Virus record (IMG/VR): IMGVR_UViG_3300028274_000043
Span: 1 to 24,532 of that record
DNA length: 24,532 nt
Reading direction: 5' to 3' (one strand)
Source: a virus
A model generated the notes under the pieces. That model was given only the letters and a program-made list of their open reading frames with translations. It did not search any database and was not told the DNA's origin. A program made the position numbers and the translations under genes. This document shows, in pieces, positions 4,761 to 23,240 of this stretch. Position 1 is the first letter of the stretch. Each line of letters starts with the position of its first letter.

Positions 4761-6305
4761 ATGTTATACGAAAATATTGATTTTGATAGAGACGAAAGCA
4801 CTTTAAATAATTTATACCACTCAGAAAACAAAACACTTTTTGAATCGACGTGTAGGAAATTATTAGATAAATGGCCTGAGTCTGAAAAAGTTTTAGAATT
4901 GCTTGGAAATTATTACCAAAAGAATAAAAATTTTGTTGATTCTTTTAAAGTTTATAATGAGATCCTCAGAATAAATCCAGACAGTTTTTGGATATATAAT
5001 AATAGGGGGACATTGTCTAGGGCAATGGGATTCTTGACAGATGCTGTTGAGGACTATACCACATCTATAAAAATCAATCCTGAAAACGCAGAAGCATACT
5101 ACAATCGTGGTAATGCATTACAAGAAATGGGACTTTTGGAAGAATCTATCTCAGATTATAAAACTGCCATATCAATCAACAAAGAATACACAGAAGCATA
5201 TGGGAATCTAGGCACAGCGTATCTTGATTATGGAGACTTAGATAAGGCGAAGGAAAATTATTTACACGCAGTCAAATTGAGACCAAACTATCCAATTGCA
5301 CATTTCAACTTGAGCGGTATAATCACATTTGTTAAAAACGATCCAGTGATCGATTATCTGGAAAGCATTTATCCGCAAGCATTAGGAATTGATAGGGGTT
5401 ATATAGCATTTTCATTAGGTAAAGCATTTGATGATATTGGGGAATATGATAAGTCGTTTAAATATTTTTATGAGGGAAATAATTTAAAGAGAAAGGGATT
5501 AGATTATAGTATATCTATGGACAAGGATTATTTAACCACCATAAAAACCGTATTCGATTCTTCTACTATTATTCCATCTAAACAAAAAAGCGAATACACC
5601 CCCATTTTTATTGTTGGTATGATGAGATCAGGAACGTCTTTGGTTGAACAAATATTATCAACACACACAAAGGTGTATGGTGCTGGTGAATTGAATTCAT
5701 TAGAAGATATTATAATTCCGTTAATAGATTCAAATAAGAATGGGTTATCTGACAATGACATAACCACTATAAGAAACAATTATACGCAAGTATTAAATTC
5801 ATTTAATGTTAATGAAAAGGTTGTTGTTGACAAAATGACTTACAATTTCCAGTGGATTGGGTTTATCCTGGCAGCATTTCCTAATGCAAAAATTATTAAT
5901 ATGGTGAGAGATCCAATTGCCACTGGTTGGTCAATATATAAACATAACTTTTCTGGTGATGATCATGAATATGCGTATAATTTAAAAGAGATTGCTGAGT
6001 TTAATAACCTATACGAAGATATGATGGCATTTTGGAAAGAGAAATTTCCTGGGAAGATATATAATGTTGGATACGAAAACTTAACAGAAAATCAATTAGA
6101 AGAATCTAAAAATATATTAGAATTTTGCGATTTAGAATGGCAAGATAAGTGTTTAGATTTCCATAAAACTAAAAGAGCAGTGAGGACTTCTAGTATTGTT
6201 CAAGTAACAAAAAAAATGTATAAAGGTAGTTCGGATAAATGGAAATCATACAAAAAATATCTGCAACCACTAATAAGTAGAATAGATAAGCACAATCATA
6301 ATTAA
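4761..6305 (+). CDS. TPR-repeat sulfotransferase
   Basis: 514 residues in two parts. Residues ~43-185 hold four to five TPR units (for example AEAYYNRGNALQEMGLLEES). Residues ~280-505 form a PAPS-dependent sulfotransferase domain: the 5'-phosphosulfate loop is G286-M-M-R-S-G-T-S293 after FIV, and the 3'-phosphate site is R383-DPIATGW-S391. The family transfers sulfate from PAPS to a hydroxyl on sugars, lipids or proteins; the acceptor is unknown. Such fusions occur in marine bacteria and some marine myophages. Both PAPS motifs look intact, so it is probably active. There is no Shine-Dalgarno before the ATG at 4761. Ile is often encoded by ATA, unlike the neighbouring structural genes, which suggests recent acquisition. 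Sulfation of a surface glycan or of the fibre itself are competing ideas. Confidence 0.85.
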   Translation: MLYENIDFDRDESTLNNLYHSENKTLFESTCRKLLDKWPESEKVLELLGNYYQKNKNFVDSFKVYNEILRINPDSFWIYNNRGTLSRAMGFLTDAVEDYTTSIKINPENAEAYYNRGNALQEMGLLEESISDYKTAISINKEYTEAYGNLGTAYLDYGDLDKAKENYLHAVKLRPNYPIAHFNLSGIITFVKNDPVIDYLESIYPQALGIDRGYIAFSLGKAFDDIGEYDKSFKYFYEGNNLKRKGLDYSISMDKDYLTTIKTVFDSSTIIPSKQKSEYTPIFIVGMMRSGTSLVEQILSTHTKVYGAGELNSLEDIIIPLIDSNKNGLSDNDITTIRNNYTQVLNSFNVNEKVVVDKMTYNFQWIGFILAAFPNAKIINMVRDPIATGWSIYKHNFSGDDHEYAYNLKEIAEFNNLYEDMMAFWKEKFPGKIYNVGYENLTENQLEESKNILEFCDLEWQDKCLDFHKTKRAVRTSSIVQVTKKMYKGSSDKWKSYKKYLQPLISRIDKHNHN

Positions 6306-8674: not shown

Positions 8675-9091
8675 ATGACAACAAATCTAACCAAAAACCT
8701 TAACGATATACTAGACGTAGACTCAGACTTAATTGAAACTGATACTGCGATCTCAACTGCAGTCGTACACGGTGATAAGCAAACTGACATCAACGATGAC
8801 TACGAGTTTGCTAGAGAAAACCTTTACAGTGTTATTGATAAAGGTACACAAGCACTAGACTCTCTATTAGATCTAGCAAAGGTTTCAGAACACCCACGTG
8901 CTTTTGAAGTAGTTGCTACGTTATCAAAAACCTTAATGGATGCTAACAAAGATTTACTATCTATTCAAAAGAAAGTAAAAGAGTTACAACGTGAGGAAGA
9001 AGATACTGGTAGCACTAATACAGCACAGAACGTGACGAATGCTTTATTCGTAGGCAGTACTGCGGAATTACAAAAGATGTTAAAAGGATAG
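8675..9091 (+). CDS. 16: Terminase small subunit gp16
   Basis: 138 residues against 164 in T4. The central region (INDDYEFARENLYSVIDKGTQALDSLL, residues ~38-65, then HPRAFEVVATLSKTLMDANK) and the C-terminal LFVGSTAELQKMLKG match the coiled-coil core and C-terminal tail of T4-like gp16. The small subunit forms a ring that recognises DNA and stimulates the gp17 motor. Normally gp17 follows directly; here a ~2 kb insert with four other genes separates them. The short acidic N-terminus fits the reduced DNA-binding region of marine homologues. Confidence 0.87.
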   Translation: MTTNLTKNLNDILDVDSDLIETDTAISTAVVHGDKQTDINDDYEFARENLYSVIDKGTQALDSLLDLAKVSEHPRAFEVVATLSKTLMDANKDLLSIQKKVKELQREEEDTGSTNTAQNVTNALFVGSTAELQKMLKG

Positions 9092-9184: not shown

Positions 9185-9913
9185 ATGAATGAAGATAATT
9201 GGCAGAAGATAGGGTTTACTTGTAGTTCGTTCGACTTGTTACACGCAGGTCATATTGCTATGCTTAAAGAGTGTAGTGAAAATTGTGATAAACTAATCGT
9301 TGGTCTAAACGTTAATCCTCATAAGAATGGTAGATACCCAGTGCAATCTGTGGTTGAACGTTATGCTCAATTGTCAGCAGTTAAGTATGTTGATGAGATT
9401 ATCCCCTACAATACTGAAGCAGAGTTGATTGATTTACTTCAACTGTATCATATTGACGTAAGGTTTATTGGATCTGATTATAGAGATAGTTCTTTCACTG
9501 GTGACGACTTGCCAATTGATACATATTATAATAGACGTGACCACAACTTCTCATCATCTGGTTTAAAGAAACAAGTGTGTGAAAATCAAGCAACTAGAAT
9601 GTTAGACGGTGATGTAGTAAAGGATAATGATACTTATACTATTGTGGATAATACAGATCTAGAACAACTAACCGTTTCAACCACAATACTTAAACCAAGT
9701 CAAGAAACATCTGGTCACAGTCACGAAGGTATTGAAGAAGTTTATACATTCCTATCTGGTCAAGGATCTATGATTATTGGTGATTTGGAACATCACATTG
9801 AAGCAGGTAAAGCATTTATTATTCCAGATGGGGCATATCATAAAGTATATAACAAGTCTGATGATGAAGACTTAATGTTCATCTGTGTATTTAATCAAAG
9901 ACGTAACCACTAA
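9185..9913 (+). CDS. Cytidylyltransferase-like / cupin fusion protein
   Basis: 242 residues in two domains. Residues 1-130 are a nucleotidyltransferase of the glycerol-3-phosphate cytidylyltransferase/RfaE2 group: GFTCSSFDLLHAGH places the HxGH motif at H20-H23, followed by KLIVGLNV, IGSDYR and the C-terminal RRDHNFSSSGLKK motif (counterpart of RTxGISTT). Residues ~160-240 are a single cupin domain: motif 1 has H178, H180 and E184/E185 before SGQG, and motif 2 is IPDGAYHKVYN with P214, G216 and H219, so the metal ligands are present. The first domain would activate a phosphate ester with CTP or ATP; the cupin may act on or bind the same sugar/polyol. The substrate is unknown. A clear AGAGGATATATT ribosome binding site follows a consensus promoter. 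It overlaps the next gene by 29 bases. Confidence 0.82.
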   Translation: MNEDNWQKIGFTCSSFDLLHAGHIAMLKECSENCDKLIVGLNVNPHKNGRYPVQSVVERYAQLSAVKYVDEIIPYNTEAELIDLLQLYHIDVRFIGSDYRDSSFTGDDLPIDTYYNRRDHNFSSSGLKKQVCENQATRMLDGDVVKDNDTYTIVDNTDLEQLTVSTTILKPSQETSGHSHEGIEEVYTFLSGQGSMIIGDLEHHIEAGKAFIIPDGAYHKVYNKSDDEDLMFICVFNQRRNH

Positions 9914-10220
9914 AGCATTACTACTAACGTCCATTCTATTCTTGAGTGGATGTTCAACGTTTGATATAATATCGTCTTCACTAAATGCAGTACAACTTGT
10001 TGCTGAAGAACCAAACGCAGTTGTCAAGAAAAAGGTGAAGAAGGTTGAACCAGTTAAGAATTGGAATCCACCCAAAGTAACTCCAATCATCCCAACTAAA
10101 ACAGAAACACCTAAACCTACTAAGGAAGAAAGGAACTTTCCTTGGTGGGCATTCATATTAGCAATCGTCTCTGGAACGGCATATCTTATAAATATGGTAA
10201 AACATAATAACAAAAGGTGA
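9885..10220 (+). CDS. Lipoprotein with C-terminal TM segment, probable unimolecular spanin (u-spanin)
   Basis: 111 residues. The frame contains no ATG near its start; GTG at 9885 is the only suitable codon, inside the end of the previous gene (29-base overlap). Residues 1-22 form a lipoprotein signal (K5, K10, then ALLLTSILFLSG) with lipobox L20-S21-G22-C23 and Ser at +2, which predicts outer-membrane sorting. Residues ~45-85 are rich in Lys, Pro and Thr. Residues ~86-105 (WWAFILAIVSGTAYLINMV) form one TM segment followed by a basic tail. A lipid anchor in the outer membrane joined to a TM in the inner membrane is the layout of u-spanins such as T1 gp11, which disrupt the outer membrane at lysis. 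The ~63-residue linker could just span the periplasm. The neighbouring holin candidate supports this. It could instead be another envelope lipoprotein. Confidence 0.68.
   Translation: MYLIKDVTTKALLLTSILFLSGCSTFDIISSSLNAVQLVAEEPNAVVKKKVKKVEPVKNWNPPKVTPIIPTKTETPKPTKEERNFPWWAFILAIVSGTAYLINMVKHNNKR
10187..10194 (+). promoter_or_regulatory. Candidate late promoter -10 box (TATAAATA) before holin candidate
   Basis: Exact TATAAATA within the last codons of the lipoprotein gene, ending 30 bases before the ATG at 10225. The distance matches the intergenic late promoters of this window, so it may give late expression of the holin candidate. Confidence 0.45.
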
Positions 10221-10224
10221 TTAT

Positions 10225-10680
10225 ATGATTCCAGTTGAATTGATAACAATGGCAGGTGGTGCTGCGATGGGTGGTCTATTTAAGTTTATGGATGCTGCTC
10301 AGAAAGCAAAACGTGAGCAACAGAAACTTCTAATTGAAAAGATTAATGCCGAGCAAGAAGTTAAAGCAAAAGACAGAAAATCTGCTACCGAGTCTGCCGA
10401 TGCTGCAGCAAAACGTACAAGTGATCCATTCTCAAAACTAACAAGACGTATCTTTGTATTAACAATGTTATTCTTAGGTGGTTGGGCAATGATGGGCGCT
10501 TTGACTGGACTAGATATTGTAGTTCCAGTTACACAAGAACAAGGATTCAGTTTCCTTGGTCTAATTGATACTAAGAAAACAGTTACTGAATTCTATACAT
10601 TCGAAAATGCTATTGTACATTTTGAATGGTTGAAGATTTCTATACTTGCCGCAGGTTCATTCTACTTAGGTAAGTCTTAA
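10225..10680 (+). CDS. Small membrane protein, putative holin with three TM segments
   Basis: 151 residues. Hydrophobic stretches lie at about 3-21 (ELITMAGGAAMGGLFKFM), 75-96 (IFVLTMLFLGGWAMMGALTGL) and 134-149 (WLKISILAAGSFYLG). Between the first two is a charged, Ala/Lys/Glu-rich helix (residues ~24-66) that looks like a coiled coil. This order resembles the three-TM holins known from gene-transfer agents and marine phages (GTA_holin_3TM type), but I cannot confirm family membership. A holin would form holes in the inner membrane and release an endolysin; no endolysin is visible in this window. It lies four bases after the spanin-like gene and its stop overlaps the next start (TAATG). Confidence 0.6.
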   Translation: MIPVELITMAGGAAMGGLFKFMDAAQKAKREQQKLLIEKINAEQEVKAKDRKSATESADAAAKRTSDPFSKLTRRIFVLTMLFLGGWAMMGALTGLDIVVPVTQEQGFSFLGLIDTKKTVTEFYTFENAIVHFEWLKISILAAGSFYLGKS

Positions 10681-11108
10681 TGTTTGACTATCAAGCAAAG
10701 GTTAAACGAGTTGTTGATGGCGATACACTTGATGCTTATATTGACTTAGGTTTTGATGTGTGGACCACCAAACGAATTCGATTTATGGGTATTGATACTC
10801 CAGAATCCCGCACACGTGACTTGACTGAAAAACGTTTCGGTAAAGGTGCTAAGCATAGATTAGTATCTATCCTTGAAGCAAACGATAATGTATTCACACT
10901 CAAATCGCACGGCACTGGAAAGTTCGGTCGTGTGCTAGGTGAGTTGTTTGTAGAGTCTATTGAAGGATCTATAAATAGTAAACTAATTGAAGAAGGACAC
11001 GCAGTTGCATACTTCGGTGGATCTAAACAAGAAGTTAAGGATGCGTTGATGGAAGCACGAAACTTATCTACAGAATACGTGCATAAACATATTGAAGAAA
11101 TTAAATAA
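10680..11108 (+). CDS. Thermonuclease (staphylococcal nuclease family)
   Basis: 142 residues, a complete SNase domain with no signal peptide. The Ca-binding and catalytic residues can be placed against staphylococcal nuclease: VVDGDTLDAY gives D15, RIRFMGIDTPE gives R34, D39, T40 and E42, and GKFGRVLGEL gives R84. All key residues are present, so it should be an active Ca-dependent nuclease cutting DNA and/or RNA. With no secretion signal it would act in the infected cell (host DNA breakdown, nucleotide recycling) unless packaged or released at lysis. It starts inside the stop of the holin candidate (TAATG) and ends ten bases before the large terminase gene, so it belongs to one transcript with its neighbours. 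Confidence 0.87.
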   Translation: MFDYQAKVKRVVDGDTLDAYIDLGFDVWTTKRIRFMGIDTPESRTRDLTEKRFGKGAKHRLVSILEANDNVFTLKSHGTGKFGRVLGELFVESIEGSINSKLIEEGHAVAYFGGSKQEVKDALMEARNLSTEYVHKHIEEIK

Positions 11109-11118
11109 TGAGTAACAC

Positions 11119-12753
11119 ATGGGTAAAAACTATCTAGGTAACACCAACCTCAAGGGAAAGGGTCAAAAGTTTAACTGGACTAAGAAACGGTTAAAAGAGT
11201 ACATGAAGTGTGCTGAAGACCCTATATACTTTGCTGAGGAATACATTAAGATCGTGCATGTCGATCACGGGTTAATCCCCATTAAAATGTATGAGTATCA
11301 GAAAGAGATAACCAACCTCATCACGGACAACCGTAGAGTTACCGTTGTTACCTCAAGACAAGCAGGTAAAACTACTGTTGCTGCTGCAGTTATCCTACAC
11401 TACGTTCTATTCAACGAACATAAACTCATAGCATTACTTGCTAATAAAGGTGACAGTGCTAGAGAAATCCTTGACCGTATTAAGATTGCATATGAAGCAT
11501 TACCTAAATGGTTACAGCAAGGTGTTGTAGAATGGAATAAAGGTTCTGTTGAATTTGAAAATGGTTCTAAGATTGTTGCAGCGGCTACTTCCTCGAGTGC
11601 TATTCGTGGTAAGTCAGTATCATTTCTATACATTGATGAGGCAGCCTTTGTTGAAAATTGGGAAGAGTTTTCTAGTGCGGTACTACCTACAATTTCGTCT
11701 GGTAAAACTACTAAGACATTATATACTTCTACACCAAATGGTTTAAATCATTTTCATAAAACTTGTAGTGGTGCTAAGGAAGGCACTAACGGATTTAAAT
11801 TTGTTGAAGTTCCTTGGCAGAAAGTTCCTGGACGTGATGCTGAATGGAAGCAGGAAACTCTTGCTGCTATGGATTTTGACACACAGAAGTTTGCACAAGA
11901 GTATTCGTGCCAATTCCTTGGTAGTTCTAATACCTTAATTGATGGTGGCAAACTAAAAACACTTGTATCATTGACACCTATTAAAGAAGGACAAGGCATT
12001 TCGATGTATGTTGAACCTGAGAAAGACCATGCATATGCATGTGTAGTGGATGTGTCAAGAGGTAAAGGTTTAGATTACTCAGCATTCCAAATTATAGATG
12101 TATCTGAAATGCCATATAAACAGGTGTGTGTATTCAGAGATAACTTTGTGACACCTGTTGAATATGCCGAAATCATATATAGAACTGCTATGTTATATAA
12201 TGAGGCAACTTGTTTAATTGAGATTAATGATATTGGTGAGCAGGTGTCTGAGTTATTACACTACGAATTTGAATATGAGAATATTCTATTCACTGAAAGT
12301 GCTGGACGTGCAGGAAGAAGAATCTCAGCTGGTTTCAGTAAAGGTGTTGATAAAGGTATAAGGACAACTAAGACTGTTAAGAGTATTGGTTGTTCAATCT
12401 TAAAGTTATTAGTTGAACAAGAGCAATTAATTATTAACGACCACAATACAATTGAAGAGTTATCTAGATTCTCAAGGAAAGGCAGTTCGTATGAGGCAGA
12501 GTCAGGAACTCACGACGACTTAGTTATGTGTCTTGTATTATTTGCATGGTTAAGTAACCAAGCATACTTTAAAGATATAACAGATATTCAAACCTTATCT
12601 AAACTAAGAGAAAGAACAGAAGAAGAATTGATGAGTGATTTATTGCCTTTCGGTATTGTAGATGATGGTATTGTAGAAGATGACATAATTGAACTTCCAC
12701 AACATAATGATTGGATGAACAGTTCTGAGGATAGATTTGACTCGGGATGGTAA
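11119..12753 (+). CDS. 17: Terminase large subunit gp17
   Basis: 544 residues (T4: 610). ATPase domain: Walker A S79-RQAGKTT86, Walker B FLYIDEAAF with D173 and E174, and coupling motif YTSTPNG at 202-208. Nuclease domain (from ~300): CVVDVSRGKGLDYSAF with D311, LIEIND with E368, and GTHDDLVM with D466/D467, the expected three acidic metal ligands. It is the packaging motor that docks on the portal, translocates DNA and cuts the concatemer. The ATG at 11119 has only a weak SD; translation is probably coupled to the nuclease gene. The ATG at 11108, overlapping the upstream stop, opens only a nine-codon frame. All motifs are intact. Confidence 0.95.
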   Translation: MGKNYLGNTNLKGKGQKFNWTKKRLKEYMKCAEDPIYFAEEYIKIVHVDHGLIPIKMYEYQKEITNLITDNRRVTVVTSRQAGKTTVAAAVILHYVLFNEHKLIALLANKGDSAREILDRIKIAYEALPKWLQQGVVEWNKGSVEFENGSKIVAAATSSSAIRGKSVSFLYIDEAAFVENWEEFSSAVLPTISSGKTTKTLYTSTPNGLNHFHKTCSGAKEGTNGFKFVEVPWQKVPGRDAEWKQETLAAMDFDTQKFAQEYSCQFLGSSNTLIDGGKLKTLVSLTPIKEGQGISMYVEPEKDHAYACVVDVSRGKGLDYSAFQIIDVSEMPYKQVCVFRDNFVTPVEYAEIIYRTAMLYNEATCLIEINDIGEQVSELLHYEFEYENILFTESAGRAGRRISAGFSKGVDKGIRTTKTVKSIGCSILKLLVEQEQLIINDHNTIEELSRFSRKGSSYEAESGTHDDLVMCLVLFAWLSNQAYFKDITDIQTLSKLRERTEEELMSDLLPFGIVDDGIVEDDIIELPQHNDWMNSSEDRFDSGW

Positions 12754-14754: not shown

Positions 14755-15303
14755 ATGGCATTTAATGTAAATTCGTTTTCGGGTGCACTAAAAGAGGGTG
14801 GAGCAAGAAATGCTCTATTCGAGGTAACAATCACTAACCCGATTGACGGTGCTGCCGATGTTCAAGTTCCATTTATGGTTAAGTCTGCTCAAATTCCTGC
14901 CTCAACTTTAGGTACAATCGAAGTTCCATACTTCGGTCGTCAAATCAAGTTAGCAGGTAACAGAACTTATGCAGAATGGACACCGACTATTATCAATGAT
15001 GAAGACTTCGCGATTAGAAATAATCTTGAGAAGTGGTCAAACGCAATCAACTCTGCTCAAGGTAACTTGAGAACTGCTGGTGGTTCTGCCCCATCATTAT
15101 ATAAGTCTAATGCACAAGTAACACAGTTTAGTAAGACTGGTGAAGTTTTAAGAACATATAACTTTGTTGGTCTCTATCCTTCTGAAGTTTCTACAATTGA
15201 CCTATCATGGGAAACTGAAGGAATTGAAGAGTACACTGTAACATTCCAGTATGATTACTGGGAAGTTGTTGGTGGTTCAACTGGCGATGCTGGCGGTATC
15301 TAA
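14755..15303 (+). CDS. 19: Tail tube protein gp19
   Basis: 182 residues (T4: 163). The conserved elements of the T4-like tube fold are visible: PFMVKSAQIPASTLGTIEVP, YFGRQIKLAGNRTYAEWT, and near the C-terminus FVGLYPSEVSTIDLSWETEG with VTFQYDYWEV. It polymerises inside the sheath and makes the DNA channel. It lies 23 bases after gp18 with an AAAGGAGAAA ribosome binding site and is probably co-transcribed with it; a hairpin terminator follows at 15324-15354. Confidence 0.93.
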   Translation: MAFNVNSFSGALKEGGARNALFEVTITNPIDGAADVQVPFMVKSAQIPASTLGTIEVPYFGRQIKLAGNRTYAEWTPTIINDEDFAIRNNLEKWSNAINSAQGNLRTAGGSAPSLYKSNAQVTQFSKTGEVLRTYNFVGLYPSEVSTIDLSWETEGIEEYTVTFQYDYWEVVGGSTGDAGGI

Positions 15304-21476: not shown

Positions 21477-22649
21477 ATGGAATTGAATAGTTTAGGCTAT
21501 GCACTAAATACATTGTACTTCCTTGTCTCAGCAGTCTTAGTGATGTGGATGGCAGCAGGTTTTACAATGTTAGAAGCAGGATCGGTTCGTTCGAAGAACG
21601 TAACTGAGATCCTTATAAAAAACGTAGCACTTTATAGTGTTGCGTCATTAACCTTCTTGTTTGTGGGTTACGAATTAATGTACGGTGGATGGAATGCTCC
21701 AGAAGACCACGCATTGATGAGTGACTTTTTCTTTCAAGTAGTATTTGTAGCAACAGCAATGTCAGTGGTTTCTGGCGCTGTTGCTGAACGTAAGAAACTA
21801 TGGTCATTCTTAGTTTTCGCAGCAATCTTTACTGCTGTGATTTACCCAATTCAAGGTTCTTGGAGTTGGGGTGGTGGCTGGTTGTCAGAAGTAGGATTCT
21901 TTGACTTTGCAGGTTCGGGAATTGTACACATGGCAGGTGCTGCAGCTGCATTAGCGGCAGTACTACTAATTGGTCCACGTAAGGGTAAGTATGATAAGAA
22001 CGGAAATCCCGTTGCTATCCACGGTTCTAGTACAACGCAAGTTGCTCTAGGTACACTTATTCTTTGGATGGGCTGGTTTGGTTTTAATGGTGGTTCACAG
22101 TTAAGTATTTTAGGATTAGACAATGCTAACGCAGTTGCTCAAATCTTTGTTAATACTAATACTGCGGCTGCTGCAGGTTTACTGAGTGCAATGGTGCTCT
22201 CAAAACTTTGGTTAAAGAAGACCGTTTTGAATGTGACTCTGAATGGTGCATTAGCAGGACTGGTAGTTATTACAGCAGATCCTCTAACACCTTCACCTGA
22301 AATCGCTGCATTATATGGTGCGATTGGTGGTTTGATTGTTCCTATTTCTATGGCATTGCTAGAGAAGTGGGGTATTGATGACCCAGTGGGTGCAATCAGT
22401 GTTCACGGAGTAGCAGGTATTGTGGGACTAATGTTGGTTCCAATTTTAAATACTGATGCTACATTATATGGACAAGCAGTTGGTACTGGTGCAATCTTCG
22501 GATTTGTATTTGGTACTTCACTAATTGTCTGGTACTTACTCAAAAAGACTATTGGTCTGAGAGTAGGTGAAGATGAAGAACTTGCTGGTTCTGATATGTG
22601 GGAGACTGGTTCTTCTGCTTATCCAGAATTTATGGATAACAGCAAGTAG
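21477..22649 (+). CDS. amt: Ammonium transporter (Amt family)
   Basis: 390 residues with about eleven TM segments and no long signal peptide. Amt signatures are GFTMLEAGSVRSKN (28-41), SGAVAERKKLW (99-109), FFDFAGSGIVHMAGAAAALA (141-160) and WFGFNGGS (200-207). The twin pore histidines (H151, H310 in ISVHGVAGIVGL) and the D143 counterpart of AmtB D160 are present. The conserved C-terminal regulatory tail (ETGSSAYPEF) is also complete, so the protein should be a functional NH4+/NH3 importer in the host inner membrane. The gene has a TATAGGAGAAAT ribosome binding site, a late promoter (21427) and a terminator on each side. It is an auxiliary metabolic gene of host origin between virion genes; base composition is similar to its neighbours, so acquisition is not recent. 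No P-II gene is seen beside it. Confidence 0.96.
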   Translation: MELNSLGYALNTLYFLVSAVLVMWMAAGFTMLEAGSVRSKNVTEILIKNVALYSVASLTFLFVGYELMYGGWNAPEDHALMSDFFFQVVFVATAMSVVSGAVAERKKLWSFLVFAAIFTAVIYPIQGSWSWGGGWLSEVGFFDFAGSGIVHMAGAAAALAAVLLIGPRKGKYDKNGNPVAIHGSSTTQVALGTLILWMGWFGFNGGSQLSILGLDNANAVAQIFVNTNTAAAAGLLSAMVLSKLWLKKTVLNVTLNGALAGLVVITADPLTPSPEIAALYGAIGGLIVPISMALLEKWGIDDPVGAISVHGVAGIVGLMLVPILNTDATLYGQAVGTGAIFGFVFGTSLIVWYLLKKTIGLRVGEDEELAGSDMWETGSSAYPEFMDNSK

Positions 22650-22745: not shown

Positions 22746-23240
22746 ATGCCTACAGAACCTACTAACAAAAGTTTACTATCCCCAATTGGATTCAGATTCA
22801 CAATCCAAAAACTTCCTCACGTAAACTATTTCTGTACTGCTGCATCTATTCCAGATATGGCACTTGGGCGTATTGACAGTGTTACGAATCCCTTCAACAA
22901 ACTACCTATTCCGTCAACTAAATTAGAATTCAGTGATTTGTCTATCAAGTTTAAGATTGATGAGGATATGAAGAATTACCGTGAGATATTTGATTGGATG
23001 AATGCTTTAGGATTCCCTGACAGTTATGACCAAAAGTCTAAATGGGCAGATACATATTCTGATGCTTCATTAATTATTATGACTTCTCAGTATCAACCTA
23101 ATATTGAAATTAAGTTTATTGACTTGTATCCTTCTAATCTTGCATCAGTTGAATTTGATATTTCTGGTTCTGATATTGAATTCTTATCTGGTGATGTAAC
23201 ATTTAATTATCGTTCTTATCAGATTAACTCTATAACATAG
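22746..23240 (+). CDS. 3: Tail completion / sheath stabiliser gp3
   Basis: 164 residues (T4 gp3: about 176). The pattern FRFTIQKLPHVNYFCTAASI (early), then IPSTKLEFSDLSIKFKIDED and MKNYREIFDWMNALGFP, and late FIDLYPSNLASVEFD, fits the T4 gp3/gp15-type tail terminator as I recall it (FVVTIPH, ISIPG, FEFDPLVVRFIVDE, YEWM in T4). gp3 caps the tail tube before gp15 and the neck join. The position between gp23 and uvsY is where marine T4-like phages carry gene 3. It is distantly tube-like (compare gp19 LYPSEVSTIDLSW with LYPSNLASVEFDI), as expected for tube-end proteins. SD is weak (ACAAGGAATTT far upstream). Confidence 0.72.
   Translation: MPTEPTNKSLLSPIGFRFTIQKLPHVNYFCTAASIPDMALGRIDSVTNPFNKLPIPSTKLEFSDLSIKFKIDEDMKNYREIFDWMNALGFPDSYDQKSKWADTYSDASLIIMTSQYQPNIEIKFIDLYPSNLASVEFDISGSDIEFLSGDVTFNYRSYQINSIT

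Follow-up and report, generated by a model that had tools for sequence, protein, structure and literature searches.

The 58 unimolecular spanins (u-spanins) of a published survey have an N-terminal lipoylation signal and a C-terminal transmembrane segment (TM), and none has a periplasmic cysteine (PMC6139136). The prototype T1 gp11, Roseophage SIO1 gp22 and the cobavirus u-spanins combine a Cys-free linker with a single C-terminal TM, a basic cytoplasmic tail and a lysis-gene neighborhood (PMC6139136, PMC6775973), and known u-spanin genes stand last in a holin–endolysin–spanin cassette. Table 5 of the same survey includes no recognized T4-like u-spanin (PMC6139136). T4 itself fills the role with two proteins, PseT.3/PseT.2, an inner-membrane i-spanin and an outer-membrane o-spanin, rather than with one that bears both anchors. 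For many marine T4-like phages the survey came up without a spanin; it points out that T4-like phages do not cluster their lysis genes and that spanins stay hidden where a short gene is overlooked or given the wrong start, and it offers a fragile outer membrane as an alternative (PMC6139136). In the marine T4-like phage Melnitz few lysin-like genes were found, and curli pores have been proposed as its substitute holin (PMC9004378). On the holin side, TeaA of Vibrio phage ICP1, placed in GTA_holin_3TM (PF11351) by remote homology, acted as a holin when tested (PMC7182436).

We analyzed a 24.5-kb virus record (24,532 nt, IMGVR_UViG_3300028274_000043; hereafter, the window) in which the structural genes of a T4-like phage are clustered. 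The gene order is gp13, gp14, gp15, gp16, a cytidylyltransferase-cupin gene, an ORF of 111 aa, an ORF of 151 aa, an SNase-like gene, gp17 and gp18–gp23, the last group named from synteny and sequence. An earlier note had read the two ORFs as a lysis cassette, a u-spanin plus a three-TM holin, placed between the terminase genes. We consider it very likely that they are a phage lysis pair, comprising a new u-spanin family and its holin in T4-like phages. The architecture of the 111-aa product, the coding constraint on its gene, the conservation of both anchors, the constant linkage to the holin and the linkage of the holin family to endolysins support this reading. Points that weigh against it are the lack of homology to any tested spanin, the short linker and its predicted disorder, the missing endolysin in the window, the weak Pfam score of the window holin and the lack of spanin homologues among deposited phages.

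All genes of this region lie on the + strand. The terminase small subunit gene (terS, gp16; 8675–9091) is followed by the cytidylyltransferase-cupin gene (9185–9913), the u-spanin candidate (9885–10220), the holin gene (10225–10680), the SNase-like nuclease gene (10680–11108) and the terminase large subunit gene (terL, gp17; 11119–12753). The cytidylyltransferase gene (absent in the relatives L006 and L016) and the SNase gene (absent in L006, L008, L009 and L010) are not part of the pair, because each is missing in some relatives. As an observation in its own right, the gene at 9185–9913 fuses cytidylyltransferase and cupin domains; its presence between gp16 and the pair is optional. The nearest deposited TerL sequences to that of the window, at 60% identity, are those of the Sinorhizobium phages phiM12, phiM7 and phiN3; neither phiM12 nor pelagiphage HTVC008M has a spanin-holin pair between gp16 and gp17.

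The 111-aa product begins with a predicted type II (lipoprotein) signal peptide, MYLIKDVTTKALLLTSILFLSG (9885–9953, including the codon of Cys23 at 9951–9953), which consists of a short, charged n-region, a hydrophobic core of 10 residues and the lipobox L20-S21-G22-C23; the predicted mature protein starts CSTFD, with Ser24 at +2. Next comes a periplasmic linker (9954–10142) that is rich in Pro, Lys and Glu, Cys-free and predicted to be disordered. From Cys23 to Pro86 it measures 63 residues, at most ~21 nm when extended; the shortest reported total for a two-component spanin is 62 (PMC6139136), and the SIO1 gp22 linker is similarly short at 59. A single C-terminal TM (residues 87–105; 10143–10199) with conserved SG (96–97) and N103 precedes the basic tail KHNNKR. 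Hydropathy finds two segments only, the signal peptide (11–29) and residues 87–105 (KD 1.64, octanol dG favorable by 9.8), and AF2 models helices at 4–40 and 87–110 (pLDDT ~90 in the TM) with a disordered linker between them. The hydropathy, the AF2 helix 87–110 and the basic tail together predict an N-out/C-in topology for the C-terminal TM. The lipobox, the Ser at +2 and the single C-terminal TM described by the earlier note are thus borne out by sequence and hydropathy.

This architecture is not a product of chance. When both strands of the window were scanned for a lipobox combined with a C-terminal TM, no ORF besides 9885–10220 was found; the design appeared in 1 of 7,821 ORFs from 300 Markov-simulated windows and in 0 of 100,000 shuffles of the protein's own residues. 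With its criteria relaxed slightly, the detector recovers the documented u-spanins T1 gp11 and SIO1 gp22 (whose linker of 59 was measured in this way) in their genomes.

A direct search with the window spanin found 10 close relatives, and walking upstream from holin homologues, together with searches using subgroup alignments, brought the family to ~40 contigs, a count that takes in near-identical copies and refers to fragments. In an alignment of 23 representatives, 18–72% identical to the window spanin, only five positions are invariant: the Cys predicted to be lipidated, a Pro where the TM begins, Ser-Gly within the TM and an Asn near its end. The TM motif P..SG..N is accordingly present in 23/23, and the linker is strongly divergent. 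Across 36 spanin sequences the linker spans 56–85 residues with a Cys in none of them, Asp at +2 is likewise found in 0/36, consistent with predicted sorting to the outer membrane, and the basic tail after the TM has a mean net charge of ~+2.9. The lipobox, LSGC in the window and thereby of the pattern [LVI][ASTVI][GAS]C, shows a few LNGC and LNSC variants among homologues; LNGC is on the published list of spanin lipobox deviations (PMC6139136). Homologues that had lost either anchor were looked for, and both the lipobox and the C-terminal TM proved to be conserved, which argues for the u-spanin reading.

The family appears to be distinct from those already described. Homology to T1 gp11, which the earlier note had suggested checking, did not hold up: the hhalign match (probability 48.6) was confined to the lipobox region, 18 columns in all, which places the window spanin outside the T1 gp11 family, and T1 gp11 is predicted to be beta-rich whereas the window linker is predicted to be disordered. 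The lipobox LSGC and the overall design are common to both. A tblastn search with four spanins of the window's family against 50,697 deposited phage records, T1 included, found no homologue at the sensitivity used, matches to PHROG Rz-like spanins were weak (best E 0.011–0.016), and a profile search of solved structures gave nothing useful. By the rule of 40% identity over 40% of length (PMC6139136), these proteins would constitute one or more new u-spanin families.

Wherever a T4-like locus includes the sequence upstream of the holin, the spanin gene immediately precedes a holin-family gene. The pair recurs in related uncultivated T4-like phages. The pair occupies at least three genome positions. 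In the first, as in the window, it stands between gp16 (with or without the cytidylyltransferase gene) and gp17 (with or without the SNase gene), both optional genes being absent from L006, the former from L016 and the latter from L008. In the second, the order is pair–gp13–gp14–gp15–gp16–gp17 (L024, most of L028–L043, L048–L051 and L095–L106), and in the third the pair lies elsewhere (L015/L094, L019/L093 and L046). The contig of L046 measures 219 kb; the pair is found at ~28.7–29.5 kb and the gene for a T4-like TerL (68% identical) at 143 kb, ~115 kb away, and an M15 endolysin gene is located 3.5 kb from the pair on the other strand. The location between gp16 and gp17 therefore holds for the window's own clade, and other clades place the pair elsewhere.

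L081 and L082 have the spanin (54% identical) before a different holin that matches PHROG holin family 3427 (E 0.0015). In these two loci (L081:2992–3803), whose holin is 29% identical to a distant type, the TM end of the spanin is changed and the conserved Asn is lost: TSYFYKYFLYRRDL.

No endolysin is encoded in the window, and we therefore describe a spanin-holin pair and not a complete lysis cassette. Phage_lysozyme (PF00959) was not found in 16 related contigs, nor was Peptidase_M15_4 found in related contigs; M15_3 matches there were confined to L046 and, as expected, L045. Unlike in the holin–endolysin–spanin cassettes of known u-spanins, the window's spanin gene is upstream of the holin gene and the endolysin is elsewhere.

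The constant pairing could also be that of a regulator, an antiholin or lysis-inhibition sensor analogous to T4 RI, which would touch the holin through its TM and sense the periplasm, and which would not be an envelope-fusing spanin. Such a protein would fit the strict adjacency to the holin, the better conservation of the TM (SG..N) than of the linker, and the altered TM end, with its Asn lost, beside the different holin of L081. T4 RI, however, bears a SAR signal and is soluble in the periplasm, unlike an outer-membrane-directed lipoprotein. Moreover, a regulator would need neither a Lol-permissive +2 residue in every homologue nor a near-constant membrane-to-membrane linker, and it is spanins that characteristically keep their anchors conserved while the linker between them varies. 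We judge the regulator reading to be quite unlikely.

A superinfection-exclusion or envelope-modifying lipoprotein that sits beside the holin by chance has less in its favor. Cor is a small lipoprotein of lambdoid-type phages, and 9 of 23 family members match the PHROG Cor family (best E 0.0009). The match covers residues 1–74 at most, a stretch that includes the signal peptide and lipobox, and leaves the conserved C-terminal TM outside, on which ground we rejected an identity as Cor; nor would this reading, which we hold to be very unlikely, explain how the pairing with the holin stays constant through relocations.

The coding frame of the u-spanin candidate is real. Its GTG is the first usable start past an in-frame TAA, and the ORF overlaps the end of the cytidylyltransferase-cupin gene by 29 nt (9885–9913), in agreement with the GTG start, upstream overlap and short length on which the earlier note had remarked. 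The ORF is without a good Shine-Dalgarno sequence (GAAG is ~15 nt upstream), so translation by re-initiation or coupling is likely. NG86 dN/dS values for this frame are 0.19/0.49 against L008, 0.27/0.73 against L006 and 0.50/1.11 against L010, and every comparison divergent enough to be useful gives a ratio below 1, indicating purifying selection. In L006 a related GTG-start ORF lies directly 3' of terS, and the frame is therefore no by-product of the upstream gene. An antisense ORF of 125 aa on the same DNA (9872–10249) was rejected on account of stops in that frame in relatives. It is thus extremely unlikely that the short ORF is an artefact, untranslated as drawn, as the weak Shine-Dalgarno, the overlap and the antisense ORF might suggest, since the sense frame is constrained while the antisense frame gains stops, the ORF is kept in L006 and L016 despite different upstream genes, and all 22 lipobox-plus-TM ORFs detected in the fetched loci are members of this one spanin family.

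The Shine-Dalgarno sequence of the holin gene, AGGTGA (10215–10220), overlaps the spanin stop codon. The 151-aa product was described as a three-TM holin; the holin type is supported, with 27 of 31 family members matching GTA_holin_3TM at E ≤ 0.1, and only two TMs are firm. The TM at 76–94 is strong and that at 130–148 moderate, whereas the N-terminal segment (1–19) is weak (KD 1.44, dG unfavorable), so that three TMs are plausible; the AF2 model is of low confidence (pLDDT 55.7). The family resembles GTA_holin_3TM in its weakly hydrophobic, charged N-terminal segment, central TM and, at the C terminus, a short TM whose last residues are F[YF].G. The window holin alone matches with E 0.039 and scores 14.9 bits against a PF11351 gathering score of 24.8 bits, and like it most members fall below the cut-off, L044 (25.2) being the sole one above. 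TeaA shows no direct alignment with the family (hhalign probability 5%).

Homologues of the holin (P0002), 58–73% identical, are also present in podovirus-type contigs that have no u-spanin, and in several of these the gene after the holin encodes a GH24-type lysozyme (L034, L036, L047) or an M15 peptidase (L045). These endolysins (L034:1758–2330, L036:3459–4004, L047:2329–2886, L045:3396–3989) themselves carry a lipobox (LSGC-S, LSGC-S, VAGC-S and LQGC-S, respectively) and appear to be lipoprotein endolysins. More distant holin homologues (27–38% identical) are found in pelagiphages (HTVC-type, Skadi), where they adjoin M15 peptidase genes, and in Roseobacter CRP phages; several of these records carry a peptidase M15 annotation at the match. 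These phages are podovirus-type and have no lipoprotein-TM gene directly upstream of the holin homologue. A holin profile search of genome contigs returned no relative and thus no prophage or host clue.

In one clade the two genes of the pair are interlocked. The first holin search yielded 17 loci of this clade, with the pair before gp13 (L028–L033, L035, L037–L040, L042, L043 and L048–L051), and in all of them the frame of the spanin runs 182–206 nt into the holin gene; at the 23 other holin loci the same frame closes within 14–128 nt, giving a long overlap in 0/23. When holin codons were redrawn synonymously, the frame stayed open past 180 nt with a probability of 0.0005–0.0075 per genome, and it is open in 17/17 although nucleotide identity there falls to 67% (the 17 share ancestry and are not independent). 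L024 and L044 also have the pair before gp13, but without the overlap. This pattern speaks for a genuine gene overlap that looks selected and that gives the spanin a long cytoplasmic tail. We found no description of such an overlapped spanin-holin arrangement.

If the pair acts as its families and work on T1 and lambda suggest, signal peptidase II processing would leave a triacylated Cys23, and Ser at +2 would send the 111-aa protein to the outer membrane by Lol. The C-terminal TM would stay in the inner membrane, with the ~63-residue disordered linker passing through the peptidoglycan to bridge the periplasm. The holin of 151 aa would accumulate in the inner membrane and trigger at a set time, probably by forming pores, which would let a cytosolic endolysin encoded outside the window degrade the peptidoglycan; the freed u-spanin would then collapse or fuse the outer and inner membranes, finishing lysis. 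The TM motif (P..SG..N) might in addition contact the holin, so that the two proteins are coupled to each other physically within the inner membrane. We think this unlikely; the idea comes from the genes traveling as a unit, the spanin tail inside the holin gene in one clade and the different TM end in L081/L082. If true, holin triggering would directly arm the spanin, unlike in the uncoupled three-step model.

An environmental T4-like lineage thus appears to have a clear u-spanin and holin pair at its terminase or neck genes, in a group whose canonical example, T4, uses two spanin genes. Since the pair recurs on ~40 related fragments, the lysis genes of this lineage are now recognizable, and the TM signature (P, SG ~10 residues on, N six further), with the adjacency rule, can be used to seek hidden spanins in other T4-like genomes.

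The window also contains genes of separate interest. The gene at 21477–22649, 3' of the gp23 gene, encodes an ammonium transporter over its full length (Amt, Pfam E 1.6e-92), which phages do not usually carry as an auxiliary metabolic gene, and a second protein weakly like the T4 tail-tube gp19 family (22746–23240; E 0.0009) is encoded apart from a gp19-like gene at 14755–15303. Among the tail-fibre-region genes, that at 4761–6305 encodes a fusion of a TPR-repeat protein with a sulfotransferase (Sulfotransfer_3, E 1.5e-39).
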